NCBI RefSeq assembly: GCF_037975245.1
Contig: NC_092567.1
Span: forward strand, 11,504,376-11,568,375
From: Apostichopus japonicus
Taxonomy: Eukaryota; Echinodermata; Holothuroidea; Aspidochirotida; Stichopodidae
Length of the DNA stretch: 64,000 nucleotides
Reading direction: 5' to 3'
Shown: piece by piece, positions 5,289 to 32,171 of the stretch
How positions within the stretch are numbered: position 1 is the stretch's first letter
Layout: each line of letters opens with the position of its first letter
Notes under the pieces: model-generated
What the model was told of the DNA's origin: nothing
What the model saw: only the letters and a program-made list of their open reading frames with translations
The model's database searches: none
Translations under genes and position numbers: made by a program

Positions 5289-5616
5289 TATTTGTGAAAT
5301 AAATCTTAAGTTCAGGAATAGCAGCTGTTTTTTAACGCTACTAAACTATAAAGCAATCACAGAATGGTCTGATAATTAAAATCGTGATAATATCTTCTGT
5401 AAACGGTAGAATAGTTTGGTCTTTTCTCCAACAGTTGTAATCTAGAATAGAAATCTAAAGTTAAGTAACACCAGCTGTTACAATAAGCTTGAAAGAAGTA
5501 CAGGATAACAAAAACAGTTAATGATATAGATTGAAACCAGCACATGATAGCAAAACAGCTAATAATAATATATGATACTTGCAAGCAGCACAGGATATGG
5601 TTAATAGCTTTATGTT

Positions 5617-5972
5617 GTGTTTACAAGGTTTCAAATTTGACCCTGGTAAACCTAAATGACCTTTGACCTCCACCAATAACAACAGGCTTCCTTTACTCAA
5701 TGTGGTACTTCTATACATTAAATATGAGGTCTGCCCATGTTTCCTTTCTTGAGATATTGGTTTTACAACGTTTTCACAATTTGAACCATGGTGACCCCAA
5801 ATGACCTTTGACCTCCAACAAAAACAATAAGCTGCCTGTACTTAATGTGGTACTTCTACACAAAAAATATGAGGTCTGCCCAAGCTTCCTTTCATGGGCT
5901 ATTGTGTTTACAAGGTTTTCACAATTTGACCTGGTGATCCCAAATAACATTTGACCTCCACAGAAACTAATA
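5617..5972 (-). repeat. 145-bp tandem repeat with DR1 hormone-receptor sites (about 2.4 units)
   Basis: The unit recurs with a period of 145 bp: the perfect 13-mer TGACCTTTGACCT is at 5657-5669 and again at 5802-5814. Each unit also has an 'AATGTGGTACTTCTA' block and a 'CTTTC(A/T)TG..ATATTG' block. The third unit is truncated and its site is mutated. The same family lies in opposite orientation at 15,490-16,560. Confidence 0.85.
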
Positions 5973-5999
5973 GGTGGGTCATTACGAGTCAAATCATGG

Positions 6000-8740: not shown

Positions 8741-8855
8741 CGAACGGGATTTCTCCGCGACGGAATACCTCGCGACGAAATGAATTTGGATAACCGAATG
8801 AACTTGGACAACGGAATGAAATTGAAGAACGGAATGAAATTAGACAACGGGAGTT
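8741..8855. repeat. Short tandem repeat around GGAATGAA
   Basis: A degenerate repeat of about 20 bp carries the words CGAAATGAATTTGGA, CGGAATGAAATTGAAGAA and CGGAATGAAATTAGACAA in succession. It is a local minisatellite with no coding sense recognised. Confidence 0.6.
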
Positions 8856-8899
8856 TTCGCGAAGGCAACATATTCAGCAACTGTAACATAAATCATAAA

Positions 8900-11100: not shown

Positions 11101-11930
11101 TGTAATACATCTGTTACAGTAGCAGTCCTGTCTCCTACAGTATATTAGCATGTTAGCATACATGATAGCATGTATCATCATGTTTATTGGCATGAATGAA
11201 CTAGCATACTGTACATATGTTAGCTTGAAGGCTATGTAAGCAGTATGATACCATACATGTACAGTATATGTACTTGTACTGTATGTTAGCATGTATGTTA
11301 ACATGTATGTTAGCATATAGCATACATGTATGTTACAGTAGTTTGTTTGTTAGCATGTATGAAAGCATGTATGTCAGCATGCATGATAGCATACATGTAC
11401 AGTATGATAGCAATTATGTTAGCCTGTATGTAAAGCCTGCTTGTTAGCCTGTATGTTAGCCTGTTTGTTAGTGTGTATACATGCTAGCGTATATGTTAGC
11501 ATGTTATAAGCAGTATGATAGGGTGTATGTCAGGCTGTATGTTAGCCTGTTTTTAGCATACATGTAAGTTAGCATACATGTTAGCATGTACAGTATACAT
11601 ATGTTAGCTTGAAGGCTATGTTAGCATGTATGATAGTAAGTATGTTAGCAGTGTATGTTAGCAAACATACATGTTAGCAAACATACATGTTAGCATGTAT
11701 GATAGCATACATGTATGTTAGTGTGTATGATAGTAAGTATGTTAGCCTGTTTGTTAGCCTGTATGTTAGCATGTTAAAAGCTGGTAGCGTTTACGTCAGG
11801 CTGTCAGTCTGTTTGTTAGCATACATGTTTGTTAGCAACTTAGCATGTATGTTAGCATTCATGAGCATGTATGTAATTCAGCATACTGTACATTAGAATG
11901 TATTTTAGCATGTTATTTAAGCAACATGAA
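11100..11930. repeat. Degenerate minisatellite of TTAGCATGTATG words
   Basis: Words such as TTAGCATGTATG, TTAGCCTGTATG and TTAGCATACATG recur dozens of times at irregular spacing over about 830 bp. Both the word and its complement (CATACATG) occur, so the tract can fold locally. Open frames here on both strands are by-products of the repeat. Confidence 0.85.
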
Positions 11931-11989
11931 GGACTTAAACAATTTTTGGTTCCTTGCTTAAGCAAAAGGGGTCTATGTAGTCAACTAGA

Positions 11990-13200
11990 TCCGCTATAGT
12001 GAAAAGGTGTGCCCTATTGTTCTCGGTGCCTGTAAAGGTCACCAAAGGTCAGTTAGGGGCCAAAAACCAAAACAATAAACAAGCAATAACTCCCATTGAC
12101 AGGGTCAGACATGATTGTTATTTTGGAACTTGTAATATACAGTATACCTGTATACTTGTAAATAACGTAGGGGATCATTTTTCAACTTAACAATGGTGTG
12201 ATCCAAGGTCAACAAAGGTCAATTAGAGGTCAAAAACAGGTATTGTTGTGATAACTTGAGAACAAAATGTCCGTCAAGGTTGGGAGTTACGCTATTGTAA
12301 TCCAATAGTGGACCCACATCTTTGTGACAGTTGACCTTAGGTTGACCTCTGATGACCTGTAAATTAGCTTCTTTATTTATTTGAATTTATTGTGGCCATA
12401 TCCAGATATCAAATGGTCTTTTGATCAAAATTGTCCATGGGTTGACCCCTGTGCGACCTTCAGGTGCAAAGTCCTGTTTGCTCATTTTAGGAGGTGCAGG
12501 ACATAAAACCAAAACAAGTTTGTCAATATTTAACTATATGATAGAGCTATACATGTATACTCTAAAGATGAAACTAACTCCCGCTTCGATCGAACACCCG
12601 GTTCGTAAGTTATGAGGTGCCAAAGGTTGGATTTGATACCTTTTTAGCAATAACATTGTGTGTGTACATTGGAGTTCATAACAATTTTAGGATGAAGTGC
12701 ACATCAAAGGGAATATTTTTCATAAAAGCTGTCATGCCTTCCAGGGTCATTCAAGATCTCTTATCATGACAAAATCTGCCCACTTATGTTAATTTTATGC
12801 AACAACTTCCAGTGACAAAGTCTGACATGGCTGATATATTGGGACAAGTTGTGAATTAACTAGTTGCACGTTTTCCAAAATTCCCTTTATGTAATCCAAG
12901 GTCACCGAAGGTCAATTATGGCTCAAAATGTGTGTTTTGGGGGCAATAACTTGTGAAACTCCCACTGATGGGGTGTAATATGGTTGACATTTTGGGACTA
13001 GTTATGAATAGGGTAAGGGATCGTTTCCAAACATAATGGTCATGTGATCCAAGGTCAAAAAAAGGTCAATTATGGGTCGAAAACTCAATCTCCAAACTGA
13101 TAAAAGTTGTCCATGGTTGATCCCTGTGCCACCTTCATGCGCAAAGTTATCAGAGGTCAAGGTTTTGTTTAGTTTCAAATGAGAGGTGGATCTCATGACC
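11990..13200 (+). repeat. Degenerate repeat family with AGGTCA direct repeats (DR4/DR5)
   Basis: Blocks of the form 'ATCCAAGGTCANNNAAGGTCAATTA' recur around 12,030, 12,200, 12,895 and 13,045. The AGGTCA pairs are spaced by 4 bases at 12036-12051, 12206-12221 and 12899-12914, and by 5 at 13052-13068. Between them are related blocks about cumulative statements of TTGACCT. The copies are diverged and irregularly spaced, so this is an old repeat. Confidence 0.7.
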
Positions 13201-13229
13201 TTGGAATATGATTTACAGTAAAGTAATAC

Positions 13230-14235
13230 TTATGGGTGTGTACGGTGCAGTGCTGTACCCATTGACTACTGGAAATGTACATACTCCAGTAGTCTATGAG
13301 TACTGCAATGACCCCTTACACACCAAGAGGTATTGTCCTTACTCTATAACTGTAGACACTACAGTAGTCATTGAGTATTGCACTGCTCCTTACACACACA
13401 GAAGTATGACTTTACTGTATAACTGTAGACACTACAGTAGTCATTGAATACTGCACTACCCCCTAACACACCCACAGGTATTTCTTTCCTGTATGACTTT
13501 ACATACTTACAGTACTTAGTCATTGAGTACTGCACTGCTCCTTGCACACCCAGAGGTATTACTTTACTGTATAATGTACAGGTGTACTACAGTAGTCATT
13601 GAGTACTGCACTGCTCCTTGCACACCCAGAGGTATTACTTAACTGTATAACTGTAGACACCACAGTAGTCATTCAGTACTGCGCTGCCCCTTACACACCC
13701 AGAGGTAAATATTTCCTGTATTTACTGTACATACAGTAATCATTGAATATGTACTGCACTGCTCCTTGCACACCCAGAGGTATTACTTAACTGTTTAACT
13801 GTAGACGCTACAGTAGTCATTGAGTACTGCCCTACTTCTTACACACCCAGAGGTATTACTTTACTGTATAAATGTTGATGCTACAGTAGTCATCGAGTAC
13901 TGTACTGCTCCCCTACACACCCAGAGGTACTGTAATACTTTACTGTATAACTGTAGACACTACAGTTATCATTGAGTACTGTACTGCTCCCTTTCATACA
14001 CAGCTCAGGTCTTATTTTACTGTATAACTTTAGATACTTGTAGTCATTGAGTACTGAACTGCTCGAGTTGTACACCCAGAGGTATTACATAACTGTATAA
14101 TTTTCCTACTATTCTCTGAGTGCTGCACTACTCCTTGCACACCAAGATGTTTTACTTTACTGTATTTACTGTAGACACAGTAGTCATTGAGTAAGTGCAC
14201 TGCTCCCTTGCACACCCAGAGGTTTTACTTTATAT
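13230..14235 (+). repeat. 75-bp satellite array (about 13 units)
   Basis: The unit carries CACACCCAGAGGTATTAC, ACTGTATAACTGTAGAC and TAGTCATTGAGTACTGCAC. CCAGAGGT recurs near 13551, 13627, 13699, 13774, 13848 and 13920, giving a period of 72-76 bp. Units differ by a few substitutions and small indels. The array ends about 190 bp before the decayed Ig exon. Unit length is not a multiple that keeps an open frame, so I do not read it as coding. Confidence 0.9.
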
Positions 14236-14422
14236 TAATGGACTGTAATGCAACATTGGTGCACAATGGAACGTATACATTTATATGATCTGTCAAATGT
14301 TTTTTTTTTTAATATACGGACTTCTTTACATGTTAAGTTCGTATTGACTAATATACAACGTATTTAAGTTGTTAACCAGTCATTGTGGGAAAAAAAACAA
14401 TTTCTCCTTTTTTCTTGAATAG

Positions 14423-14700
14423 CCTATCCAAGCCCGCCGTACATAATTGTAGAAGGATGTGACCATACACAGTATGTGTACTCGACGTCGCAAGAGCAGG
14501 AAACGTGACGTGTTCAGTTCGTGGAATACGACCAGAAGTCAAACTCCAATGGAGAACTTAGGAAAACTATCCTGCTCTTTCTCTAACAGAGCTGGAAAGG
14601 ACATCAACAGAAAAGTGAGGAATCTTTGACATTTCTCTTACAACAAACTTCAAAATTTTATCAGCGCCTGAAAGAGGGATCACATTAGAGTGTTTTATAA
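14423..14700 (+). pseudogene. Decayed immunoglobulin-like domain exon
   Basis: After an acceptor (TTCTTGAATAG) the frame starting at 14425 reads YPSPPYIIVEG and on to QEQE. One base is missing near 14503, after which the frame from 14505 gives VTCSVRGIRPEVKLQW, the typical first-Cys to Trp core of an Ig domain. The same frame then meets TAG at 14559 and TGA at 14616, yet still reads GIFDISLTTNF and GITLECF, which fit the E/F strands and second Cys. The exon starts in phase 1, as Ig exons usually do, and the transmembrane exon that follows also needs phase 1. No good donor is visible after the last Cys. It is a dead exon of the gene downstream, probably skipped. Confidence 0.75.
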
Positions 14701-15169
14701 TGAGTGTTTTATACCTGAAGTTACATTAGAATTGATCTAAATATTCTCCAGTACAGATCCAGTACAGTAGCCTGCTCGTGTAGTTAGAATACAGCCCGTA
14801 TGTTCAGTGAATTTTATGTCTGATAGAAGAATGCTTCTAAATGAATGGCTAGTTTGCATCTCCAATGACTTCTTCTTCGATCCGACTTACGGTTTCTAAA
14901 TCTGACTTTAAGCTCCATCAGAACAACTTTATTGTTATCTGCTTCTTTATATCGCCAAAAGGCTAGTCTTTTCTCACACACTGATGAATACTGATACACA
15001 GTAGTCTAAATCTACAGTATCTGAAATATGTGCACTTGGAAAGTGCAGTTGATTTTATTGAATAATTGTTCTGTCTTTGTGATAATGTTAACCCTTTCAG
15101 ATCCTCACTTAATATTTTCAAATGCTTAATTTCAAATTGCTAATTAACATGTGTTTTTCCAATTTACAG

Positions 15170-15265
15170 ACAACAAGGGGACTTTGGGTTCATCGAAAGT
15201 TGCTGTGGTTACAATTATAATTGTAGTACTTCTAATTCTGGTGGTTTTGGTCGTCTGTATGAAAG
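15170..15265 (+). CDS. Transmembrane exon of the NACHT receptor
   Basis: This 96-nt exon lies between acceptor AATTTACAG and donor GGTACT, phase 1 at both ends. After a short Asn/Lys/Gly/Ser segment (NKGTLGSSK) it codes about 21 strongly hydrophobic residues, mostly Val, Ile and Leu, followed by CMK. That is a single-pass transmembrane helix with a positive residue on the C-terminal side. By the positive-inside rule the downstream NACHT is cytoplasmic. Phase 1-1 matches Ig-type extracellular exons upstream. Confidence 0.8.
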
Positions 15266-18200
15266 GTACTGTACCATGGTGCATAGCACAATTACTTTGC
15301 AATATATAGCAAAGTTTGTCAGCTATTTTCTTGTATTCTATTTGTATTCATTGCATCTATATTATCCTTATTGACTAACAGAAAAGTATAGCAACTATTT
15401 GTTTTATCTAAATTTATATTTTTTATGTTTTTTATTTTGATGATAATAGTAACCGTTGCATTGATGATGGCGTTTGTGTGTATGTGCGAGTTTGTGATGC
15501 CCAGCTTGTAAACATGATATCTCAAGAAGGGTGGTTCTGACCAATATCATATGTAATGTGTAGACTTACCACATTGAGTACAAGAAGCCTATTGTTTTTG
15601 GTGAAGGTCAAGGGTCATTTGGGGTCATGAGGAGTCAAATTGTAAAAATCTGGTAAACACAATATTTCAAGAAAGGAAGGTCGGACCAACTTCATATTTG
15701 GTGAGCTTAAATTCACATTGAGTACAAGAATCCTATTGTTTTTGGTGGGGGTCAAAAGTCATTTGAGGTCACCAAGGATCAAATTGTGAAAACCTTTTAA
15801 ACACGATATCTCAAGATGGGAAGCATGGGCATACCTCATATTTGATGTGTAAAAGTACCAAATTAAGTCAAAGAAGTCTATTGTTTTTGGTGGAGGTCAA
15901 AGGTCATTTGGGGTCACTAGGGGTCAAATTGTGAAAACCTTTTAAACATGATGTGTCAAGAAGGAAAGCATGACGAACAGACCTTATATTTAATGTGTAG
16001 AAGAACCTTATTGATTAAAAGAAGCTCATTTTTTTCGGGGAAGTGGAAGGTCATTTGGGGTCATCAGAGGTCAAATTATGAAAACCTTGTAAACATGATA
16101 TCTCAATATTAGAAGCTTGGGCAGATCGCATAGTTGGTATGAAGGTGTATTGCATTGAGTGAAAGAAGCCCATTGATTTTGGTGGAGCTCAAGGTTCACT
16201 TGGGGAAAACAGGTCAAATGGTGAAAGCTTTGTAAACATGATCTTGCAAGAAGGGAACCTTGGACAAGTTAAGGAGCCTATTACTGTTTTTGGTGGAGGT
16301 CTAAGGTCATATGAAGACAACAAATGCCAAACATTTACTTCACTCCCCTCTTACCTGTCTCTCTACACTAACACACCTTCCTAACATAATATCATGAGGG
16401 AAGCTTGGACAGATCGCATATTTGGTATGTAATTGTACAACATTGGGCGGAGGTCAGTGGTCGTTTGAGTTCACCAGGTGTCAAATTGTGAGACCCATGT
16501 TTTACACAATATTTCAACAAGGACAGATGTCATATTTAGTATCTTGATGTATCTATCACATTTAGTACAAGATGCCTGTTGTTGAGGTGAATGGTAATTT
16601 CAGGACAGCCTCTGTCATTGTGACTTCTTTTTTTTTTCACATCACACTGCTTTTCACTGTATTACTATGTTCAAGTATGTTGTACACCCTCACTGTACAT
16701 GATGTCAGATTCATGAAGAAAACTGCTGATGTTACATCATCGAAACCACGATGCATCTTTGCATTCTGGTTAATTAACCTTACATAAATTATTCCTGCAG
16801 TGTTAAACTTCCGAAGGAGTCGGAGGAAAATTGTGGAAGACGAAGAGGTAAGACTGTAATATCTGAAAATATATATAAGATCAAGGGAAGCAAAATATAT
16901 AAAGCTGTTAAACATACTGTAACGCTAATTTAGTCTAAGATTCCGGGGGCACTTAAATATTCCCTACTGAGGACTGGTGGTGGTATGGAAACAAATGCGG
17001 CTTGGATGATTGTATGTTAGTAACGACGAGCCTTTAATCTCGCAATAACACGCAAAGAATGTAACACATAGATAAACTTAAGTAAAGAAACAGGCGCTGA
17101 GATTTCGTAATCTATTACTTTAATCAGTCACGGTACATACCATAAAGAAAATGGTTACAAACGTGTCACTTGTCTGATGATCACCAAACACGTGGGAAAC
17201 TCAGAGATTACACATGATTAAACAAAATATACTACTGTATATTAACTTGCGCTACCTATATTTATTGAGCATTTTTGATGCCGGAAGTGAACAACTGAAT
17301 TAATCGATACACATAATATGTTGCAACAACAAGTTAACATTATACTCATTTGAAATATTTAGCATTCCTACCAATGGATAGTTTCATGTTGTAAAAGATA
17401 TAAGTAATACACGCAACTGTCAGGAAATCCTCTCCCTACCAGTTTTGTGTTGAGAATAACATGTACATTACGATCATCCCTGCAGCAAAAACCACCCCAT
17501 TCCCCCTGGTCTTAGCCAAAAACAGGGAAGATTAAATATCTACCTGAGTTGGTAATGCAAGCCATACTGAACTCTTCTCTGCACAAATTCATGATTAAAA
17601 GAAACAGTGTATTTTTTCAGTGGTCAAGCCAAACTTGTCTTCACACACAGGAAAGTAGTACTGGCCATTAGAGCACTTGTGTTTGCAATCATACAGGTGA
17701 CTGGTCAACTCAAGGATGAATCCTAATGACAGTATTTGGGGTAGTTTATGCTATCAAGTAACAAATTATTATGCTTGAGTGAATTAGATGAGGACAGTTT
17801 TTCTATAGGCAAGCTTGACTGCCATGTAGACTCTGAGTACATTTATATAAGAATAAGGTATAACCTACGGTTACTTAGCAACATCAAACATATTATGTTA
17901 CCTTGTATCCTATTTAATAGAAAATGTTAGTTACATAGTCAAATTATTTGCAAATAGTGACTTCAAATTGATAATTTTATTGATAATATGTTTGAAAGTA
18001 TCATTACCTCTCTCTTGTTTAGATGTTGCCCAAGACTAAGACTCACCGCACACCTGGTAAGTCTGATGTACAAGTTATTGCAAGCTGAGTGCAGTGAATG
18101 CTGCAAACAATACCTTCAATTGCTTTAAGATACTGTTAAATACCACGCATAAATTAAAATAAATTTCAACATACATATCCTCTACAAATGATAATGTATA

Positions 18201-21200
18201 ATAATGTAACTGATTCCAGTGACTTTATTGCTGTCATATCAAATTCATGTTGCAGTTAACTTTACCAAATGGGGATACAGTATATAAATGACACAATAAT
18301 TTCACGGTTCCTTTTGTGGTTTATGAAAATAAGATATGAACATTCTGAATACATCAGAATGCGCCCCACTTCAGATAACAGTTATGACCCAATGATGACT
18401 CTCAAATGGTCTGAGCCAAGAATTTTTTTTTTTTTACACATCTTTGCCAAATGTTGGAATCGATTGTCTCTTTGCAATTAAAGCAGCTGTTCAAATAACC
18501 ATTTAGTTTGAGAACGAATCTAAAGTTAAGCAATTCAATTAACATATCAAGACATTTTCTACAACAAAATTTGGTTGAGCAGCTACCAATAATGACATTC
18601 CCAATTAAAAAAAAAAACTTTCATCTGACCATTTTCATTATTGAATTTGTTCCTGATATAAAATAAGATTGTCACTAATCACACTTTTCTGGTTTCCTAC
18701 AGAGGAGGAACAATTCATCAAGGAACTAAAGGCAAAGTATGAGATACTTTATCACTCCGTACAACCATTGCCTTACATCAGAGACAGAATGTATTGTGTT
18801 GATAAAGTATATGTTTATAGCGGCATTGAACGGTTAGTTCAACAAGCACATGGAAACAAAATGTGGAAACTTTTAGAGTCACATCATGAACTACTAAAGA
18901 AACCTGAGAATTGTGGTAGGCAAATTATAGAGGGCGAACCTGGATCCGGAAAATCAACACTGACACTACAGCTTGCATACGATTGGTGCCAAAGAGTTCC
19001 AAAATCCCCTTTAAGTAACGTACCGGTACTTATTTACCTGCGGCTAAGACAACTGAGAGGGGTGAAGTCAATATACCAAGCAATACGGCGTTTTATATTA
19101 CCCAGAGACTCAGATCTGAGTGAGGTTATAGTGGAATCAATCATAAAGAATTGTTCAGGTGTATTGGTTATTTTGGATGGATTTGACGAATACCCTGATA
19201 AAGACGATCAAGAGACTGATATTTCTCTTATCCTTCGGAGAGAAATGTTGCAGGATATAGACGTCATTCTGACTACCAGGCCTTTCTACTTACCGAAAGA
19301 ATTTGCACCGCATAGTGATCGAATACGTTTAACAGGTTTCAACGAGGACATCCGAGATCAATATATTCAGAAAGCAGTTGTACACGGTGACGAACAAGCT
19401 GCCAGGGAAATAATACTTAAACTCCAACGAAACCCTCTACTTGGTGACTTGTGTCAAGTTCGTTTGTTGTTTGTTTTGTTTGCTCACATGAGCCACGAGA
19501 ACAAAGACTTGAAGACATTCAAATGCGTTACTAGCTTCTTTCGTAATGTGATAGCTTGCTTACATAGTCATTTGATGAACAAACCAATTGAAAAGGTATG
19601 TTTTGACTTAAAACATGATGAGTTGAACAAGGTTGCTTTTGAGGCATTGAACGGTAGAAACCAACTGATTGTGTGGGATAGTACTTCCCTGAGAAAACGA
19701 CTTGGGGATGACTTTTATGAGCAGTATCTTAATACTGGAATATTTTTTGAGGAAGAAATACTGACTGGTGATCAATTTCTCTACAAAAAGGAAGTCAGAT
19801 TCTTCCACAAATTGTTCTGTGAGTGGTATGCTGCCCACTACATTGCTGATTATCTATCTCAAGAATCTTTAACCTCTGCCACAACAGAGAGCCAGAGTGT
19901 AGCTGAACTGCTCCGTTTTTTGGATCCTTTTGAACTTCACTATGTTTACAGATTTGCCTGTGGTCTTAATAAGACTGCTTCAGGTAAAATTGTAAATTAT
20001 CTGCAAAACAACCTTAAACATAAAAAGTTTGCTATGATGTGCATGCTGGAACAAGACTATAAAAATGAGAATGTTGTTGATGCAATCACAAAGTTGGCCT
20101 CTAAAGTGGTCCACGTGCATGGCGATGACAGTCAACTACATCAGAGATCAACTTTACAAGTTTTGGAATTCGCGAGTGCAACACAGGTGAAGTAATTTTC
20201 TTTCACTGCAATCAAGACATATTTCCTCAGGTTTGTGGTCATGTGGTCACGGTCTTGTACTGTTATTGTACAATATAATTATAATCAGTGTGTTCTTATA
20301 CCTACAAAAAACAATGCAAAACTTCCAGCCTCCACCGGGATTCGGACCTTTGCCCTCTCATGTATTTAAGTGCCTGGTTTATTTTTCTGCCAAGTCCTGT
20401 TTTGATTTTTCCAGTTTGCACTGCATTTCTTGAAAGTTATATAATAGCAGTCGATTCATGAGATCAGATTCCCAACTGTATACATATCTTCAGAGGTTGA
20501 ATCCCAAAATAATGACTTAATGACCATACGAACGTAAACAATTTCAAATGCTAACAACACTTAGTGTCAATGTCGTTACCAATAGTGTCACTTGATTTAT
20601 TGCTTTCATGTGGCCATACTGCCAGTAATAAATGAACACACTATGACATAGACAATCCAAACCTTGAAAATATTGAATAATTTGAGTTTTAGTTGTGAGG
20701 TCTTCATAACAGCAAATGGTGTTAAATGCAGAACTGAAGTCCATAAAACAAGTCCTTGCATAATTACTAGGAGTGTCTACATGTTGACGTAGAATAGTGT
20801 CCAGAAGCAGGCGGGCATCCCCACCCGATCTACCACTGCGATATGCGAATCGGTATTTGTCCAGTGATGGACTACAGTTCAATATTTCGCTACGAAGAAG
20901 TTTCTCAAAACACTTCATTGAAACACTGGTCTAACTCAATTACATAAAACCCTCCATCCGTTCATAATGTAGCATGATTCTTTTACTAGAGGATAACTAC
21001 AATACATTAACCTTGTTCATTTCTCTAACAGATTACCATAGCCTGCCTTCACCTGACCATGGCCTTCAAGGAGTGTGATGGATACACTATTTTACTCCAA
21101 TCTGGCCTCTCTCTCTGTCCTTTAGTGACAGTAGAAAAGATACACATAGAGACTGAGAAGGAAGGAAATGAACCGTATGCAATATCAGAGATACAGTTAA

Positions 21201-24200
21201 CAAACATCTTCGGTTTTGCGCTTCGTTGTCAGTCTGTTAAGGAGCTGTCGTAAGTTGAATCTCATGTTTTTTGTTATCATACTATGTACCTACAAGTATT
21301 CTCTCTTGTTACATTTAAAATAACTGATTAACCAAAGTAATAAAGATAAACACAGAGCTCTGACAAAACTTGTATTAGAAATGACGTACCATCAAGAAAT
21401 ACATTGTAATCGGAAATTTTAGTGTTACAATCATGAAAAAAGATGAGTTGTTTATGTTGGTATGACTAGCCATCACGGTATTAATTATAACCAAAAGAAA
21501 CAATGACAGTTGTGAATTTGGAAGGTAAGAATATTTTTCATATATCATTGGGAATATGTCTTACATGATATGATAAGTATCATCAAAGAGGCCAAGGTGT
21601 AATTGAACCCAACAAATTTCTTCATGAATTTTGGAGGATTTAATCAGTAATGTGGTAGTATGAGGTAATCCCCCACTCTTAAAAACAGAGGACAACATAC
21701 TGTGCGTGGAATTGTATTACAAACAATTCTATTTTACAATCTATCTGATTGTCTGCACACCAATTCCTTTCATGGACTCCTAGCACGACCTAAGGACGAG
21801 CCTAAACATACTGTATATTACACTATTACCTTCCTGCAGTTATGGGCTCATTTGCTCATATTAAACAGCAAAATGATGTCCACAGAAATGATGTCCACAA
21901 AATGATGTCCACTGTTTTGCTATCTTTCTCTCATGTTGGTTTGTTTCTTCCTTTCTACTTCAAAGGTTCAGTGAATGTCTGCTGCCTCTTTCGCCCTCTC
22001 AAGAGTCTATCAATGCAGAGATGATATCTAGGAAACTTAAAAGTAACTATCGATTCTGTCAGTATTGGTTGATTATTTGATAAAATCTAGTCATTTAGGA
22101 GCTGATATAAGAGATAATATATTGTAACATTTTCATAAGAAGTGCAAAGAGCAGATTGTAAGCCTTTGGTAAAAGCAAGAATGATGCAAAAGTAGAAAAT
22201 ATGACAAAATAAATTGCTTTGTCAGGAGGATTACATTGATTTTAGGAGCAGTAAGTGTTAACCTCCTGACTGATTTGTCCTGCTCGACACATTCCTTTGG
22301 TACAAGCTACTGTAATGGCAATGTTATTAACTTATCATACCTATACTTAGGATATTTGTTTAAGAACATTACTTTAAGTTTAAACACTGAAATCGTGTCG
22401 TTTTAAGTCAAGCCATATTTATTGGATGAAAAACACCAAAATCAAAGTTAGGTCTTAAGTGTTCCATTTTTAGTGTAGAGGTGTCCGTTTCATTTATGTG
22501 AAAAAGTTAATTCCTCTCCTTCATAAATCCTAAAATGTCTTTTAAAATTTAACATATTTTTACATACTTGTCATCATAGTATACTGGCGAGACTACGGTT
22601 ACAGCCTGAATCTCCATTCTGGTGATTGGGAGGTATGATTCTTTTGTTTTTAGTTGCCAGGGCTTTTTGTTATTGTGTACGTGTCCATTAGTGCAGAACA
22701 AGTTGGAAGTACAGTAGTGTAAATGCCGACAACCACTAGACAACAACAGAGATCGTGACATAGCTTAGGGAATATAATGTGTAGTTCTAGATTGTGGAAA
22801 CAATATTTAAAATATGAGTTGGTCATTGGACATTTTTGTTTACTAATTAATTCAGATCATTAATCAACTGAAGATACTCAAGGTAACCCTGTATGACGTT
22901 TCTTTTCTATTGAGACTATTTTGAACTTTTCTGTACATAGTGATAAGTCTGGTAGTATGAAAATGACGTTTTGCTGGATGTGTTTTGGACTTATTTTCAT
23001 AACAATGGATTTTCTTTAAGCTATAGTAATACCAATGATACTACAATTAGAATAGTAAAAACAAGTAAAAACAGAGAGATAAGTTTACACTGCTTCATTT
23101 TGTGTTTATTTTCAGGTTGATAATATCAATATTATTGAGTCACTGTGTTCAGAGAGGTTACAGATCTGGACTAAAGATAGTAAATTACAACAGAATAGTA
23201 CTTTGCAGCTACTGAAGAACGCATCTAACAATGATGTAAGTCAGTAGTCTAATATCAAAATCCCTATGATGGACTAGATATGTCAAAATACATCATCCCC
23301 ATTATGTACTAGATATGTCATCCCCATTATGTTATTAAGTGTTTTTTGAGATACCATAGTATCATTTTGCATTTTGCAGTCAAATTATTTAACAAATTTG
23401 ATTCATTGTCTTCAACAGTGTTAAGAATGCAGGATTTTGCATCCGGAACGCAAAGTTCCAGAGATGGACGCAAACACTTCACATTGCGTCCCGCGGATGG
23501 AAACCCTAAGTACACACACTCACAACTAGGCCTATATGCAAAACATAACAAAACAAATTTTTGAATGAATATCTTTTGAATGAACATTATTTTCCAAACC
23601 TCAGGGTAATCAAAATTTCTTCCAATCATTCTGATGATTGAATTTGTCTTAAATCAAATAAATCATAGCAATCAACCACAAGGTACGGAGTTATAACTCC
23701 GTACCTTGTTATAACAACATTTACATTACAGAGATTTACATGCAAACAATAGTCATAGTTCCTTCCAAACTTCCCATGATCTGATTGGCTAATAGTTCCT
23801 TACCTTTTTTCTGGAAACATTCTTGTGTCTGTAGTGCTCAATGAAAACAAATTATGTAAATTAACAACAATTTAACATTACTTTCCCTGTGTAGAGATGA
23901 CAATGTTTGTGCTATAAGCTATCATATGTGTGCACTCAAATATCATAACATTAGGCCCTGTTGACAGTCATGTTATGAAATTTTGGTTTTTTTTTTCTAC
24001 GATATCATGTAATATTTGAGTCATTGTTTTGATAAAAAAAAAAGTTGTGAGTTGAGACAAGTTAGTAATTTTGTAGGAAGCTAACATCTCGGATACTAAA
24101 AAATTATTTTGACCTCACAGTACGTTTGTTCTCTCCACATTGACAGTTGTTCAAGTAATATACTGTACATTCATACCGCAGTACTTTCTTTGTTGCAAAG

Positions 24201-27200
24201 TTTTTCGCACTGTCTTTGACCATGTGCCCCACTGATTTATTTTTCTTGTGCAACATTCATACATTGTCAAAAGTAGCTATTGAAGCTTGAGTTTTTATTG
24301 GACTTTGTGTGAAGAGATATTTACATACTGTATGAAAGGGGCAATGGGTTGGAACTGGCTGGGGTTGGGCCAACTTGCCAATGGTGGTTGAGGAAAGGGT
24401 AAACTTTGTTCAATTTTAAATAAAACTAATGAATAACATTGCATTGGTTAACTGTTAATGGTAACTTACAACAGAACTTCATAAAAGTTGTGAGCAAGTA
24501 GTTATAGGCCTTTAGGGATGTGTTCTTGTGTTGTCGAGATCTATTTATATTTTCTACAAAATTTAAGGGGCTCAATAAAATGAGTTTAGCGTGCAGCGTT
24601 TTCACTTTTACATGTTCTCTCTAAGCACTCCTATTACTTAACATGAATTTCCAACATTCACAGCATATGCATAGCCTATAACATTTCACACACGCTTTGT
24701 AAGGAAGTTGTTTATGATGCAGAGGTATGGATTGTGTGATCTAGGAAAGCATATTTGGTAACTAGTCTATGGTAAAATTTCTCTCTTCAAAACTTTGAAA
24801 GTCTTTTTGTTGGAGTACAATAGTTACAGGTTTATCATTTGATGATTTTTTGTGCATGGCATAGACCTATCACTAAAGGCTTCTTGTTGTGCACAAGCCA
24901 ATGTGCTTTCAGGGGTCATTATAGCTCAGTATTATGTGTTCCTGTAGAGGTATTTTACCTTGCATTTTGCATGGAGGACTACAGGGATGCCAGTTTTTCT
25001 GAGCAGACTCAAACCCTGTTAAACGTTTAATCCTAGTAACCATGCTGGACTTCACAGTGTACTAAATTTCACGCTAATTGCACACATACTGTAAGAGTAC
25101 TCCAGCTAGTGGCACACATAACACAAGATGATTTAAAGATAACATATCACTCTGTAGTGACAATATATCTATAATTCATAAGGTGTGTGGTTTGACAAAA
25201 TAAAAACAGGACGTTTAACATAACTAATTCATATCAAGAAATTTTCTCACTACATTCCTAGTCTAACAGCCCATATTTCATCCTGGTCATCATTCATATA
25301 TCAGTCATTTTGCCCATTTTATGTTTCATGCATTTATAGTAAGACGGGGTAAAAAAAAAACGTTTCCTTAAAGTTTAACATAAAACTCGTTAGGTAGATG
25401 CTTAGGTAGATATTTTAGCATTGTCAGTTGACAAGTGGGAATACCTTCCTAAATAGCCATAATAAAAATTTCAATCACAATGAGTAAAGGAGAAATTCCA
25501 GAAAAGGGGTGGTTTTTTTTTACCCCGGCTGTTAGTCATTTTTGGGGTAAAAAAAAACCCTGCTGGGGTAAAAAAAGTCCACACTGTTAAAACAACATAC
25601 TACCAAAGAAAATGTGCAAAACCACCAGAAATATTTTCAGCACACTTTAGAAAAGCTTTATTTGGGCATTTTCAATCAAGTTCTGCATGAATTAACCTAT
25701 TGCCAAACGATAAACTCCGGGAAACAAACCCCACCTTCCGAGACTTAGCAAGATTCTATCAAGACTGTTTAATGCCCCCTGAAACATTATTGACCATGTT
25801 TTATGAGTTTTATTCTATATATTAGTATCACATCCAGCTGTGGGGTTGGGACTTAGGGTAGAGAATAATTTAGGACTCTAAAAATAACAAGATAACCATA
25901 TACAGCAGACATATATTGTGTTAGGCTATAACACTAGGCTTACATAGAAATAACTTAGGTTAAGAACAGGCAACAGTTAGTTATAAAAATGTAAATTATT
26001 ATATTGGTAGAAATTAGAGGAGCATAGAGCATAGGAGCATACTCCCTGTGTCAATCATATAGCAATTCTAACATTCTGTGATAAATATAAACCATTTTGG
26101 GAGGAAATTAACTGGTCTTTTTTTACCCCATACGGACACTAAACCCTGGGGTAAAAAAAAACCACGTCATTCGAGAAAACTGGCAGATCGTGCGGGTAAT
26201 TACATTACTGATTCATGTAGGTACGCCTCTTGTTATCATAACCAAGAAACAAAAACCTCAATATCAGTTCTAATATTTTTGCAGGATAAAGTTAAAGGAC
26301 AGTGTTCAGAACTTAAATATTTGCTATTTTTAGAGTATAGGAAAAATCGGCGCTAAAAGTATCGGTACGCCGATGGAAAAGAATAGTAACAATCAATTAA
26401 GTATGTCAGAATTGACTTGGGCACCATGGTTTTCACATACACCATACAAAAATGTGTTTCTATTTCTCACGACTTGTAGTTGGGGGGTGGTTTTTTTTTA
26501 CCCCAACTACCCTGTGGTTTTTTTTTACCCCGTCTTACTATATTCACTTTAGTGTTACTGTCTTTTTATACATTGTGTACTATGTTAGATAAAGAAGTTG
26601 GATCAACCCATATTAAAAATGGTGAAGAAAAATGTTGTTTCTGTTAACATTAATGTGAGATTTCAATAAACAAACTTGAGCCTAATCGTAATAATGCGAG
26701 GAGTGGATTTATGCTAGTATTAAGATGTATAAGAGATACCTTCAGGAAAGTTACTGGCAACAGTAGGTTATAATCGTATTAATAATCGATATAGCTCTAA
26801 ATCATTCACAATGTTGATTGAATCGTTTGTTACCTTCCTTCAGATCCCCATCTTCCATCTGGAGCTTCTACAATCCTTCTCCAAGGCTGATGCTGGTAAC
26901 ATCATCCTCTGTTCAGGTCTACAATTGTCCTGTCCTGTGTCATTAAAGAAGCTATCGATAGATACGTATGAGGAGGGAAGAGAACTGACAGAGACAGAGG
27001 TTGTTGGCATATTGATGTTTGCACAACATTCACAGCGATTGGAAAAGCTAATGTGAGTATTTCAATGAATATCGTATCTTAGTAATGCGTACCTAGATAC
27101 CACTTTCACACTTTAAATAGGCATAAATACCTGCAAAGTTTTATCACTATTTGCCAAGTGGAAAGATACTCTCAAGGACAGAACTTTATTGTTTCTGTAT

Positions 27201-30200
27201 TGAGTATTTACAAACCCATTTTTTACCTTCGCCTTGTTTGTTAAACTCTACATTGGATCGTGAGGAGTGGTGCTTTGTTCGGGTTAATTGTCATTTTAGG
27301 GACTTGGCAGAAAATAAGATATATTTCAAATATTTCGCAAAACAAATACTATATCATTGAATGACTTTCCTTCTAATGAATAGCTTTACTCATTGTTTAT
27401 ATATGATATACAGGTTAGCTTTATCATCTGTGTTATTGTCAATGCTTTACGCGTTCAGGTCATTGACAGTGATCGTCTGAAAAATTTACCAAAAATAAAA
27501 TCGGATAAATTTTTGTGAATTGTGATCAGGCAATTGACCGACTCATGGTTCTGCTTTACTTCACAGGTTCTTATTTTGTCTGTTGCCCCAGTCTATTGCT
27601 GGTGAGGATATTCCTTCAATATTGAAGTCAAGGAAAGTGAAAGGTACTTTATGCGAATGCTCAGGTTAACCTCTGTCGATTGATCAATATCGACAGTTGG
27701 TACATTAACGTCATGATCTGATACTGATTACTATTATTACAGCAGCCAATCATTGTAGTCAATAATGTAAATTGTATTACTTATCATTGGTTGCCTGAAG
27801 TTATCATTAAAATAATACATTAAATGTGTGAAACATCAAGCAAAGGATGTATATTTATAGACGATTCTGATATGATGGAGACATCAAGCCTTTTATCTTG
27901 TTTTATATTCAAAATGAAATAAAACTGTTAGCATGCTGCTTATCCACTAAGGAGCCTGTGTAAAAGAATGTAAAAATAAGTTGGCCTGACATATCAATCC
28001 TACAGTAGCAGGAACTTCTTTAGGTAGCATACGCCCATTAAAAGCCCCATTGACTTACACACTAAATCACAAAAGTAATGTGGTCTCTAAGTCTAGATAG
28101 ATGTTTTCACTAGCTACACGCTACCCATCACCAGATAGCTGACATGTTGGCCTATCATGGCACCATCAATTTTCCGTATCATGGCCATGTAGATTTTTTG
28201 CTATCCGAGCCGGAAGTTTTCGTCACTTGTAAACAAACCTCTTCACTCAGTGGTAAACAAATTTCCTACGCTGCTCCTGGGAGGCCTAAAGGGGTCTAAA
28301 ATTGCCTCAATTGACCCAATTTTCTCACTACATGTACTTCCATTCATGCTCTTCAACATGCAAGCCACAAAAAACTAGATTATGATTGATAACAGGTCAC
28401 AAAAGATGTTCTCCTGCTGCTTTTTGGCACTTTTCATGATGGAGAACAATCGAGCGGATTGATATAGACTCTAATAGGAGTATGCCACCTTCAGAGGCTA
28501 AATGAAAAGTATCAGTAACAGAAGGGACAAAAACACACACAGAATGCAAACAGGTTAATGAGCAGGGGGAACACAAAGAGATAGATGTAAGAGGATTAAT
28601 AGACAAGGGATGTAGAGAAGAAAAGAAACCAACAGGGGAAGAGGAGAGGTAGGAGATCCAAAGAGAGGATGAAGGGAACAGGGTAGGGAGTAAACTGGAG
28701 GACACAGACAGAAATGTGTGGAGAAAAAAAAGGGGGTGGAAAAGAGCCACGGGAAGAGGAGTGACAGGGGGGACAAGGGGAGAAGGGGGGGGACAGAAGA
28801 AAAGTTAGTCATGTCCTTCCTGAATGTTGAGCTCATGAGGTTTCGTACCAGGTCAGGACGGCTACCTAAGGAGACAATCCCCTGTTGGGACGTGTTATTC
28901 ATGGTATGGTTGGGAAGTCTTATATTCTAATACATGCTACATGCAGTAATAAGCTTGATACAAGACTGAAGAGAGGTGGTACAGCTGGCTGAGATGTTGT
29001 TGTTTTGACTTCTGTATTCAGAGTGTCTGTCATTGCTAGACAATTATACATACACTAGGTGTCTAAATATAAACATACCACCACAGAGATATGGTGAGGA
29101 ATTAAGAACCAGACTGAATTAGTATTAGATACCCTCAGGATGTTCTACAGTTACAATAATATTATGAAGTGAGGGTAATTTAAGACTGGGAATATCTCCA
29201 GATCAGGGTTAACATGAAATACATCCAGTATGTTACATATGCTGAGCATCAAACATTTGCCTTTTGCATGATACATGACAGTGAAGGGGGACCATGATTT
29301 AATTATAATCTAATGATATGCTTTTCTAAAGAATGTCAGGTTAAATGTTTAAAAGAAATAATGATACACAAACTGGTTTATCCCGTTTCAAAGCTTTCCG
29401 CATAAATGAAAGTTACATTTTTCACTCGATAACAGAACAGAGAATGATGGCAAAACTTGCCCTTCTGCCTTGTTTTGCGCATGTTCTACATGTTAATGTA
29501 ATTATGTAAAATAGCTGGGCGTAGCAGATTCTTGTACAGTCTCTTCACAATAAATTGCTCAAGGCCTATGTGACTGTAGTGTAGTGTAGGTCATTGGGGT
29601 GTCTGGGAGTGAAATATTCATGTTTTATTTTTATTTTGTTAACCATGGCATTGTAACCTCTTTCATTTTAGTCACTTGGTTACCGTACGATAGTGGCAAA
29701 ATTTATGACCTCAACCTTGAATCTGGTCGATGGATGGTGAGTATCAAGAACTTACATGTTTCACTAACCTATTGCTTGACAACTGGTTGTATAATTATCT
29801 GGAAAGAAGTATTAATGTATTCAAAGAATCGGAACTCCCCAACGACTGTTAAGTGATTTTCAAAATGAATCAATTAAAGAAAGGAACAGTTTGACAGGTA
29901 AGATGCATCAATATATTTTGCTCAGATTGTTGAGGTGGACTCACATACTGAATCAAGTAACAAGAAAATTAAACAGAATAACATAATGTCTGTGTAACCT
30001 TACTTTGACCAGTGTTCGTATCGATTGATTGTTTTTCAATTAACAGTTCAGGGGGTATATGGAAAATGTTTAACCGGTTAGTTTTCAGAGTTTCTTGTTG
30101 TGGTCACTCAAGTACATTAAATTAACATTGATTACAGTACCGTCGTGCATCTTGCCTGAAAGTAGTAGATGAAAACCTCATGCAATTATCTTCTGTATAA

Positions 30201-32171
30201 CAGTTGAGTTTTCGAATCCATAATCAATTGCTTCGCACTGTCAGTTACAACTGCTGCGTGTGTGTCCAGTATCGTATAGTCTTTGCATTAACTTTTGATC
30301 AGCGTCAGTCTACGATACCATTACATAAATATCAAAAAGGTTAAGATGCAACAAAGAACAGTTGATAGATCATTCATTCTTGTCACCTTTGCTCCTGTAA
30401 TTACCAGATACATGCTCCTTATTGCAGTTTGAATATTAACGTCATCAGAGTGTCGTCAAAGTGTCACGCGACAGATATTATTTTTATAACTTTGATCCCA
30501 AGCATCTCTGATATTCATCCCAAAGTAACATTTTTCTTTGTAGCATACTTCCTTCTTTGTTTGAATTGAAAAGAAAATTAATTCTTGATTCGCCTCATAA
30601 CTGTTGGAGTGATTTTGTGACGTCATATTGGTAAGCTCATAAACCTTCCTGTTGTATCTAACTTATAGTATGATGATCGTACACTCGATGTGACAGATGC
30701 AGTTTACAGCAAGGAGGTAGGTAGTGAAGTATAATGTATTACAATACACACAGATTCATTGGTTTAATCTCGATGAACATTGTAATGGAGATTGATCATT
30801 AACCTACAAACTAATCTGAACATTTTTTGGTATGTATAGAAATATAATAATGTTTGAAAGGGACGATTAAAAAAAAAGATTGTCGCTGTGTGCACCTTGA
30901 ACACAAAAGAATAGATTACATATCGCAAATAGGAAATGTGGAGTTTTGCTATCTTTTTATAAGTTACATAAGGCTTGCTAATAGATCATAGAAAACATAA
31001 GTGATTCACGGATTCATTAGACATAACAAACATAGCTTCTTAATGTTACTCTATTAACCCATATTACTATGAAAAAGTAAAATTAAGGGTAACATTATGT
31101 TGATTGCTCCATATTTATTAATCTCATTTGATTGACAATGTGATTTCACAAATCCCTAGCAGCCATACTTTTGAAATTTGAATTATTTTGTCATACAATA
31201 AAATTACAGCTATCATTTATGATTGACTTCTTTTATACAGGTTAGCGAATTCCGGGAAGTATGGCAGTAAGTTATTTTTATGTGTATTTTTTCGTACGAT
31301 TGGTGATTTATTGAGTTAACATACACAAATCCCCATCATTACGATAATCCCTGCCTATAGCAAATACCACCCAAATCCCCTGTTTTGACCAAAAATAGGG
31401 GAGATTGAATATCTACCGGAGTTGGTAATGCTATAGCCATACTGAACGCTCTTCTGCAAAATTTCACGATTAAACACACAGTGTATCATTTCAGTGTAAA
31501 GCCAAACTTGTCATCGCACACCAGAAAGTAGTACTGGCCATGAGAGCACTTGTGTTTACAATCATACAGGTGACTGGTCAATTAAATAGGTGCACTCAAG
31601 GATTAATACTTATGGCAGTATTTGGGGTAGTTTATGCTATCAAGTAACAAATTATTCATGCTTGAGTGAATTTGAGGAGGACTGTTTTTCTATAGACAGG
31701 CTTGACCAACAAGGGAGTAGTATACAGTACATTATGCTACTTCAAACCCCCCACCCCCCCCCCCCCTGTGAAGCAGCATGATATATACTACTTATGGGAT
31801 TTAGATAAAGGATACACACTTGTACAGTATGCAGGTTGTGTATATCAAATAAGATGCATTGATGGCCATACGTAATTGATATATATACTTCATATATATA
31901 TATATATATATATATATTACGTAAAAATATCTTTTTAAGAATGAATTATAGATGACGTCGCTGCAGCCTGTTCAATCCAGCAAAGTCAGAACTATGTTTT
32001 ATTGAATAGAATTGGGTAAAACAATGTTAAACTTTATTTGCATTGTAACGTAGATCTATGTTCACATTTTGTTGCAATTTATCTTACTGCAGGGGTACAG
32101 ACTGTCAAAAGGCTAGAGAAAGGAAACTGAAGGTACCCAAAGATGATACACTGACACCACTGCTACAGTAA
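15170..32171 (+). CDS. Membrane-anchored NACHT (NLR-like) receptor gene, 5' end not found
   Basis: Fourteen exons form one open frame of 877 codons plus stop: 15170-15265, 16801-16847, 18023-18056, 18703-20186, 21032-21249, 21966-22042, 22580-22632, 23116-23235, 26844-27052, 27567-27643, 29672-29736, 30669-30716, 31241-31266 and 32093-32171. All have AG acceptors and GT donors, and every junction keeps phase. Order: transmembrane helix, charged linker, NACHT NTPase with a winged-helix-like end, a repeat-type C-terminal module present twice, and a short tail. NACHT proteins are NTP-driven oligomerising sensors, usually cytosolic. Here the helix places the NACHT inside and a missing N-terminus outside. 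The first exon uses one base from an upstream exon that I could not find; the only candidate is the broken Ig exon. No canonical AATAAA follows the stop closely. The gene may be expressed through another first exon, or be losing function at its 5' end. Confidence 0.8.
15490..16560 (+). repeat. 145-bp tandem repeat in intron 1, with a perfect DR1 site
   Basis: About seven diverged units of about 145 bp carry 'TCAAATTGTGAAAACC', 'ACATGATATCTCAAGAA' and 'GAAGCCTATTGTTTTTGGTG'. The GTCAAATT word recurs near 15633, 15778, 15913 and 16069. The unit at 15894-15906 contains the perfect 13-mer AGGTCAAAGGTCA; other units have one-base variants. This is the family of 5617-5972 in the opposite orientation. 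It lies in the intron between the transmembrane exon and the next linker exon. Confidence 0.85.
16801..18056 (+). CDS. Two short juxtamembrane linker exons of the NACHT receptor
   Basis: Exon 16801-16847 (acceptor CCTGCAG, donor GTAAGA) codes FRRSRRKIVEDEE, a basic then acidic juxtamembrane segment. Exon 18023-18056 (acceptor TTGTTTAG, donor GTAAGT) codes MLPKTKTHRTP and ends in phase 1 to join the NACHT exon. The second exon begins exactly with ATG. A transcript starting in the preceding intron could therefore make a protein without the transmembrane helix; this is inference. Confidence 0.7.
17471..17820 (+). repeat. Intronic dispersed repeat, copy 1 of 2
   Basis: This segment of about 350 bp matches 31336-31706 in the same orientation. 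Shared words include GAGTTGGTAATGC, AAAGTAGTACTGGCCAT, GAGCACTTGTGTTT, CAATCATACAGGTGACTGG and GTTTATGCTATCAAGTAAC. Both copies lie in introns of the receptor gene, one before and one after the NACHT and C-terminal exons. The divergence (substitutions and small indels) shows it is not very recent. Confidence 0.85.
18703..20186 (+). CDS. NACHT NTPase exon
   Basis: This single intact exon of 1,484 nt (acceptor TTTCCTACAG, donor GTGAAG) encodes about 495 residues. Walker A GEPGSGKST is at 18933-18959. Walker B with the NLR-type extension, VLVILDGFDE, is at 19161-19190. The sensor-like DVILTTRP is at 19260-19283. The residues FFHKLFCEWYAAHY (about 19800-19840) match the winged-helix/superhelical end of NACHT proteins. 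The exon starts with EEEQFIKELKAKY, and a region of about 70 residues precedes the P-loop. No Death, CARD or Pyrin domain is visible. The last 40 residues (DSQLHQRSTLQVLEFA) are related to the separate exon at 23116-23235. All key nucleotide-binding motifs are present, so ATP or GTP binding is likely. Confidence 0.95.
20325..20352 (-). repeat. tRNA-derived SINE-like B-box remnant
   Basis: On the minus strand the text reads GGTCCGAATCCCGGTGGAGG, close to the RNA polymerase III B box GGTTCGAATCC. No matching A box or complete cloverleaf was recognised, so it is a SINE remnant rather than a tRNA gene. Confidence 0.45.
20544..20918 (-). pseudogene. Non-LTR retrotransposon reverse-transcriptase fragment
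   Basis: A minus-strand frame reads FEKLLRSEIL, then LDKYRFAYRSGRSGGDA, then FMDFSSAFNTI. These match the conserved RT blocks 'Q.AYR.GRS..DA' and 'FVDFSSAFNT' of LINE-type elements. After NTI a frameshift occurs; another frame continues with KLKLFNIFKVWIVYVI and FITGSMAT, resembling the next RT block. No YADD box or endonuclease is present. It is an old 5'- and 3'-truncated insertion in the intron between the NACHT exon and the next exon, antisense to the gene. Confidence 0.85.
21032..22632 (+). CDS. C-terminal module A of the NACHT receptor (three exons)
   Basis: Exon 21032-21249 (ITIACLHLTMAF ... QSVKELS; phase 0 to 2), exon 21966-22042 (77 nt; FSECLLPLSPSQES ... SRKLK; phase 2 to 1) and exon 22580-22632 (IYWRDYGYSLNLHSGDWE; phase 1 to 0). 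Each has a close counterpart in module B with the same phase. The first exon has the Leu-rich alternation of an LRR-like fold, but no clean LxxLxLxxN repeat. The third ends in the motif W....Y.LNL.SG.W. Downstream of NACHT this is the position of the ligand or partner-sensing part in NLR proteins. Confidence 0.7.
23116..29736 (+). CDS. C-terminal module B of the NACHT receptor (four exons)
   Basis: Exon 23116-23235 (40 codons; SKLQQNSTLQLLKNAS) resembles the tail of the NACHT exon. Exon 26844-27052 (IPIFHLELLQSF ... SQRLEKL; 209 nt) resembles exon 21032-21249. Exon 27567-27643 is 77 nt, as in module A, and reads FLFCLLPQSIAGED ... SRKVK. Exon 29672-29736 reads VTWLPYDSGKIYDLNLESG. Phases are 0, 0 to 2, 2 to 1 and 1 to 0, the same as module A. 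The set therefore arose by tandem duplication of a whole exon block. A large intron (23,236-26,843) holds the TIR element at 25,336-26,541. Confidence 0.75.
25336..26541. mobile_element. Non-autonomous DNA element with GTAAGACGGGGTAAAA inverted ends
   Basis: The left end AGTAAGACGGGGTAAAAAAA (from 25339) is matched by its exact reverse complement ending at 26539. The flanks are TATA on both sides, which fits a TA-type target duplication but cannot be separated from the terminal repeat. Inside, the word GGGGTAAAAAAAAACC or its complement recurs at about 25510, 25545, 25565, 26120, 26148, 26488 and 26515. An ORF at 26078-26356 (+) lies inside; it shows no transposase motif that I recognise. Length is about 1.2 kb. 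It sits in the intron before exon 26844. Confidence 0.8.
27644..28540. other. Intronic stretch, nothing identified
   Basis: This is part of the intron between exons 27567-27643 and 29672-29736. No coding, repeat or regulatory element was recognised. Confidence 0.4.
28540..28800 (+). repeat. Purine-rich tract
   Basis: The plus strand is nearly all A and G for about 250 bp, with runs such as GGAAGAGGAGAGGTAGGAG and AGGGGAGAAGGGGGGGGA. Such mirror-like purine tracts can form triplex or G-quadruplex DNA. The apparent Pro/Ser/Leu-rich ORFs on the minus strand are by-products of this composition. Confidence 0.8.
30618..30625. promoter_or_regulatory. CRE-type palindrome TGACGTCA (intronic)
   Basis: This is a perfect TGACGTCA, the CREB/ATF consensus. 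It lies 44 bp before exon 30669-30716 of the receptor gene. Function is unproven; a single 8-mer can occur by chance. Confidence 0.3.
30669..32171 (+). CDS. C-terminal tail exons of the NACHT receptor
   Basis: Three small exons close the gene. Exon 30669-30716 codes YDDRTLDVTDAVYSKE, exon 31241-31266 codes VSEFREVW, and exon 32093-32171 codes GTDCQKARERKLKVPK and then DDTLTPLLQ before the stop TAA at 32169-32171. The tail is hydrophilic with mixed charge, and no known signalling motif was recognised. Junctions keep phase (0, 0, 2). Confidence 0.7.
31336..31706 (+). repeat. Intronic dispersed repeat, copy 2 of 2
   Basis: This copy is homologous to 17471-17820 (see that entry). Here it lies in the last intron of the receptor gene, and shared words end with TTTTTCTATAGACAGGCTTGAC. 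A polypurine/polypyrimidine stretch ACCCCCCACCCCCCCCCC follows at about 31747. Confidence 0.85.
31893..31919. repeat. (TA)n microsatellite
   Basis: A simple AT dinucleotide run in the last intron of the receptor gene. Confidence 0.9.

Follow-up and report, generated by a model that had tools for sequence, protein, structure and literature searches.

Does a NACHT gene of the holothuroid Apostichopus japonicus, with a transmembrane (TM) exon and an immunoglobulin (Ig)-type exon upstream, make a surface receptor in which extracellular Ig domains are joined to an NLR-type NTPase? We looked into this for one such gene in a window of 64,000 nucleotides on contig C7 of the genome (NC_092567.1; G000:C7:11504376-11568375), where a sequence-only reading had proposed an Ig-TM-NACHT receptor and, with it, a possible separate receptor class. 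Our comparison with paralogues elsewhere in the genome suggests, with a probability of about 0.65, that the window gene is one of 17 close C7 copies derived from a receptor of the AjNLRC4 type and that its product is most likely a NACHT protein without Ig domains. The Ig-TM-NACHT architecture is true for the gene family and not for the window locus, and it is not new.

Exon chain and Ig2 relic in the window

The features around the NACHT exon are as follows (positions are those of the window).

13276 to 14232, plus strand: 73-bp minisatellite of 12.9 copies, directly upstream of the Ig2 relic
14423 to 14700, plus strand: Ig2 pseudo-exon with a 1-nt deletion, an in-frame TAG and an in-frame TGA; 3' end and donor lost
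15170 to 15265, plus strand: transmembrane-helix exon, phase 1-1, open in the window
15505 to 16266, plus strand: 145-bp minisatellite within the intron between the TM exon and linker exon 1, present in paralogues too
16801 to 16847, plus strand: linker exon 1 (basic juxtamembrane segment), phase 1-0
18023 to 18056, plus strand: linker exon 2, phase 0-1, acceptor AG at 18021-18022, first codon ATG
18703 to 20186, plus strand: NACHT exon, open

The TM, linker 1, linker 2 and NACHT exons join in phase and have AG/GT ends. The TM exon measures 96 nt, with a best 19-residue mean hydropathy of 3.79, and it was the sole passing stretch when positions 10000-18700 were scanned for phase-1 TM exons. 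This junction of the helix exon to the NACHT exon through two linkers had been proposed from the letters alone, and it proved real: of 20 regions fetched upstream of paralogues, 18 show the TM exon, both linkers and the NACHT start in this order, the two exceptions being relatives of 55-57% identity (L027 and L028). Because the segments recur in this order, the chain is no chance reading.

The protein from the joined exons matched Pfam NACHT (E value = 3.4e-19). It contains GEPGSGKST and LVILDGFDE, which we take to be the Walker A and Walker B motifs, and by a NACHT domain with both motifs the gene would be classed as an NLR (a NACHT-bearing STAND NTPase). Residues 74-422 of the NACHT exon aligned with NLRP3 structures (best E value = 9.7e-9) and residues 74-440 with NLRC4 structures (best E value = 6.4e-8). 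Of the N-terminal domains of NLRs, Death, CARD or Pyrin (PYD), none was matched by Pfam in the 10 open reading frames (ORFs) scanned among the 89 of at least 38 amino acids on the plus strand of positions 1-15200. The NACHT exon probably ends with a donor at 20186; unless spliced at 20186/20187, its frame meets a stop at 20193-20195.

As for the Ig exon upstream, its homology, phase and place stood and its intactness did not. Positions 14423-14700 are homologous to the open Ig2 exon of three paralogues on contig C16 and lie in the expected phase and place, and the exon is interrupted by the deletion and the two in-frame stops listed above. The intact exon, by our inference, runs to position 348 and has a GT donor there; the match breaks off at position 278, and the window lacks the final 70 nt together with the splice donor. 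Among the C7 loci that we read, 15 of 16 hold the relic (L016 gave no match), and both stops are identical in 15/15 relics aligned; the 1-nt deletion of the window is also present in L013, L017, L021 and L022. A genome search with Ig2 gave the same picture: in C7 3.1-12.3 Mb, each of the 16 rows has one or more TGA and one or more TAG codons, and stops are absent from the 7 close rows on C16. One further C7 row, outside the cluster at 25.47 Mb, is open and 39% identical.

We rejected an assembly error as the origin of the two stops, since these recur at other C7 loci. We also dropped a deletion that joined the 73-bp minisatellite to Ig2: its breakpoint is unproven, and the repeat lies upstream of the C16 gene as well, where the left flank was unmatched. 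C7 copies carry this repeat, and a shortened version of it precedes the C16 gene. Where the window has the minisatellite, the complete C16 gene has additional ectodomain exons 5' of Ig2.

Complete Ig-TM-NACHT relatives and the C7 branch

The NACHT genome search scored 86 of 578 candidates, and the NACHT copy counts below are counts among these matches. The double-Ig search scored 150 of 255 candidates (147 matches) and the IgV search 150 of 384. For linkage, an Ig2 exon had to lie on the same strand within 25 kb; the 86 NACHT rows were compared with the top 74 of 150 Ig2 rows.

Paralogues with intact Ig exons, which the sequence-only reading had suggested looking for, were found in a cluster at C16 31.2-33.0 Mb (L024, L025 and L026). 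Their NACHT exons are 89-91% identical to that of the window, and Ig2, TM and linkers are collinear with it. Unlike in the window, the Ig2 and double-Ig exons are open in the three C16 copies read; the IgV exon was read in one of them (L032) and is open in the search rows, and in this interval IgV, double Ig and Ig2 each have 7 close rows with an open frame among the matches listed. One collinear unit (L032+L024) runs from end to end, with a signal-peptide-like exon (2752-2806), IgV (3051), double-Ig (8883), Ig2 (10623), TM (11697) and linker exons, and then the NACHT start. The proposed architecture thus holds for the family and fails for the window locus, where the Ig exon is unreadable. The window TM exon has 7 C16 DNA matches in total. 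Ownership of this exon by another gene, which would have undone the proposal, was rejected, as it sits between open Ig2 and NACHT in three C16 copies.

Furthermore, a 9-kb stretch of C16 (L031) can be taken as the AjNLRC4 gene. Four primers of Table 1 in PMC8699970 fall in it, with mismatches of 1 (EX-F), 1 (EX-R), 0 (qF) and 0 (qR), and the motif LRTD stands at residue 47 of its double-Ig exon; PMC11932488, which gives the accession MN607598, places LRTD at residue 177 of AjNLRC4, a number that would leave 130 residues ahead of that exon. Three other AjNLRC4 oligonucleotides of the same PMC8699970 table did not match L031 (best mismatches: IN-F 10, IN-R 11, small interfering RNA 4). The exon order in L031 is IgV, double-Ig, Ig2, TM and NACHT, and the published architecture appears to agree with this plan (Ig-like 31-132, Ig 251-353, TM 483-503 and NACHT 600-757, with a second TM predicted at 776-795; PMC8699970). 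Surface location, microbe binding and internalisation have been reported for AjNLRC4 (PMC8699970). Compared with L031, the window has a homologous NACHT exon (47% identical, 456 bits) and the same order of Ig2, TM and NACHT, with the TM exon between Ig and NACHT. It has no open Ig domain: IgV, double-Ig and Ig2 are open in AjNLRC4, whereas a broken Ig2 relic alone is left in the window. Counterparts of the window's linker exons were not identified in L031.

Two of the published oligonucleotides led elsewhere. The AjNLRC4-IN F primer had one genome match within 2 mismatches, an exact one at L029 (G000:C14:1474164), where the exon preceding the match encodes a ZZ zinc finger (E value = 1.8e-12) that recalls sequestosome-1. 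The primer in Table 1 of PMC8699970 may come from another gene. The sense strand of siAjNLRC4 had no exact genome match, and its sole match within 1 mismatch is at L035 (G000:C9:18902179).

The C7 branch, window included, comprises 17 close NACHT copies among the matches listed, with the NACHT frame free of stops in 16. The TM exon was followed in the window and 15 of the 16 other close copies; its splice dinucleotides are intact in 16/16 and its frame in 14/16. Linkage to Ig2 set the groups apart. Among the close C7 copies (n = 17), Ig2 is present with stops in 16, absent in 1 and open in 0; among the close C16 copies (n = 7), it is open in 6 and absent in 1, a partial NACHT at 39.72 Mb with two stops of its own. 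More distant C16 copies have an open Ig2 in 24/24 (52-57% identity) or in 3 of 7, with none at the other 4 (49% identity or less), and the one C21 copy has an open Ig2 (1/1). A second NACHT group, 47-49% identical to that of the window, had no Ig2 within 25 kb in 21/21 C7 and 9/9 C22 rows. One locus of each was read (L036 on C7 and L037 on C22); over about 8 kb upstream, neither had a TM-exon candidate or an Ig match better than an E value of 0.13, so both look Ig-less too. By coordinates, a close C7 copy is followed, about 22-37 kb downstream, by a second-group C7 NACHT exon in at least 7 cases.

Next to the Ig2 relics, no other Ig exon was found in the C7 cluster. Double-Ig and IgV gave no row at C7 3-12.5 Mb among the matches listed; outside this interval, both queries have rows at C7 25.46 Mb, and double-Ig has a weak one at C7 2.54 Mb (20% identity, E value = 9e-4). 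When the window was searched with IgV, double-Ig and Ig2 queries, the relic was the only match, with none in the 14.4 kb upstream of it. In the fetched C7 regions, IgV and double-Ig queries from C16 gave just weak cross-matches on the relic (E value = 0.002 or worse), and the corresponding AjNLRC4 queries, in the part of the subjects viewed, one reverse-strand row (E value = 0.14, L033+L009). A divergent IgV or double-Ig exon could be missed, because only 150 of 255 and 150 of 384 candidates were scored. Elsewhere, G000 C9:13401948-13404373 carries open IgV and double-Ig exons that resemble those of the C16 cluster at 89-90%; C9 has neither a NACHT nor an Ig2 row among the matches listed, and the pair is possibly an Ig-only offshoot. 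For C7, loss of the ectodomain before the copies spread is suggested by the two Ig2 stops that they share and by the lack of the upstream exons.

Selection and the readings of the locus

We estimated ratios of nonsynonymous to synonymous polymorphism (pN/pS) in 16 C7 copies (the window and L009-L023; the 17th, a partial copy, was left out). For NACHT, pN/pS was 0.31 when 16 copies were compared over codons 1-163, and 0.39 when 8 copies were compared over the full exon. It was 1.14 for the TM exon and 6.3 for linker 1, and linker 2 had no synonymous change. When divergence was compared with that of intron windows of equal length (which overlap and hence are not independent; the tandem repeat was masked), NACHT fell below 124/124 windows, linker 2 at the 2nd percentile, the TM exon at the 21st and linker 1 at the 87th. 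As a control, the Ig exons of three C16 copies gave pN/pS of 0.22-0.46. These results indicate that NACHT is under purifying selection in the C7 copies and that the TM and linker-1 exons diverge like introns. The TM frame is lost in 2/16 copies, the linker 1 acceptor in 1/16, and linker 2 and the NACHT start in 0/16, a difference too small to carry weight alone.

From these data we infer the following order of events. The ancestor would have been a receptor of the AjNLRC4 type, built as signal peptide, IgV, Ig, Ig, Ig2, TM, linkers and NACHT. The C7 ancestor would then have lost the signal-peptide and first Ig exons and gained two stops in Ig2, probably before the copies multiplied, and the NACHT exon would have stayed open under purifying selection. 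The product may start at the ATG of linker exon 2 (18023) and be cytosolic, which we propose tentatively; a membrane-anchored, Ig-less NACHT protein with a further, unseen 5' exon is less likely than this cytosolic form. On the same tentative footing, a surface Ig-TM-NACHT lineage may have shed its signal peptide and ectodomain a single time and later expanded into a cytosolic NLR family, with the membrane form kept in the same genome. An Ig-less product would oligomerise through NACHT and might act as a regulator, as a partner of the Ig-bearing receptors or as a sensor through its C-terminal part.

Several points weigh against this account. Given the intact TM splice sites (16/16) and frame (14/16), the protein may still be anchored in the membrane by way of a further 5' exon. 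An ATG also begins linker exon 2 in the 3 C16 copies examined, where this exon is internal. Gene conversion could have spread the Ig2 stops across the C7 copies. Moreover, the pooled pN/pS describes the C7 clade and not the window copy, whose NACHT exon shows a single synonymous and no nonsynonymous difference from that of L001. Short exons give little power, and the C7 copies are not independent of each other.

Among the alternatives, it is rather unlikely that the whole locus is a decaying pseudogene whose NACHT frame is open only because the duplication is recent. In its favour, none of the known 5' exons turned up, Ig2 is dead, 1/17 C7 copies already has a NACHT stop, and close copies differ little: the window and L001 are 99.67% identical over 4.49 kb. 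However, the NACHT exon shows a pN/pS of 0.31-0.39 and less divergence than any of the intron windows, although the Ig2 stops are common to the copies.

Much less probable is a hidden or new ectodomain, with an unrecognised upstream exon that gives a signal peptide or other domain and is spliced to the TM exon. Such an exon would account for the intact TM splice sites, 5' exons of such genes can sit many kilobases away, and our signal-peptide scan was weak, as it found no candidate in the 3.3 kb upstream of the AjNLRC4 IgV exon either. Yet the 10 upstream ORFs tested had no Pfam match of any kind, the scan gave just two weak signal-peptide-like candidates, both within a simple-repeat tract, and the Ig queries were silent upstream of the relic. 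Least credible is a working Ig-TM-NACHT receptor at the window locus, as first proposed, since the fitting exon order and phases and the architecture of the paralogues are contradicted by an Ig exon with a frameshift, two stops shared with sibling copies and a missing donor.

The candidate 3' part of the gene and published relatives

Downstream of the NACHT exon we noted the following candidates.

21032 to 21249, plus strand: candidate C-terminal exon, proposed from an open frame with splice sites and contained in a stretch whose DNA matches a C16 paralogue at 86%; Pfam gave no domain
21966 to 22043, plus strand: candidate C-terminal exon within the same 86% C16 match, boundaries by eye
23117 to 23236, plus strand: candidate C-terminal exon within the same 86% C16 match
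26845 to 27052, plus strand: candidate C-terminal exon within an 88% match to a C16 paralogue
27568 to 27643, plus strand: weaker candidate C-terminal exon, open frame only, outside every C16 match block

The candidate at 23117-23236 weakly resembles the last part of the NACHT exon (39% over 38 aa, E value = 0.047). No leucine-rich repeat family was found at E values up to 0.1 in the joined candidates, an exon set that is itself predicted. A reverse-transcriptase-like fragment (Pfam RVT_1, E value = 7.7e-4, which does not reach the curated cut-off) lies on the minus strand at 20544-20930, within what is presumably the intron that follows NACHT. A dispersed repeat with two copies 90-91% alike occurs at 17623-17770 and 31496-31656, both presumably intronic.

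The separate receptor class that had been suggested was pre-empted by work on the same animal. Ig-TM-NACHT receptors of A. japonicus were described as AjNLRC4 (PMC8699970, 2021) and AjNLR-new (PMC13133943, 2026), and the theme was continued in PMC11932488 (2025), so the membrane anchoring of NACHT that had seemed surprising is already described. AjNLR-new (PIK48001.1) is reported to have Ig, TM and NACHT together; it differs in that its NACHT is said to lie outside the cell and its Ig inside (PMC13133943), a comparison made by description alone. In another holothuroid, Chiridota heheva, 22 of 53 NLRs are NACHT-only and 6 have other domains, including Ig V-set (PMC8913654); by description, the NACHT-only proteins resemble the Ig-less C7 type in domain content. 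For the Ig-less C7 branch itself, a narrow search of the open-licence literature found no report, which is weak evidence.

With the receptor class already in print for A. japonicus, the surprise of the proposal is gone. This animal appears to carry full Ig-TM-NACHT genes together with a separate branch of close NACHT relatives without the ectodomain. The two gene sets together would allow a direct test of the role of NACHT without extracellular recognition, and of whether the Ig-less copies regulate the surface receptors.

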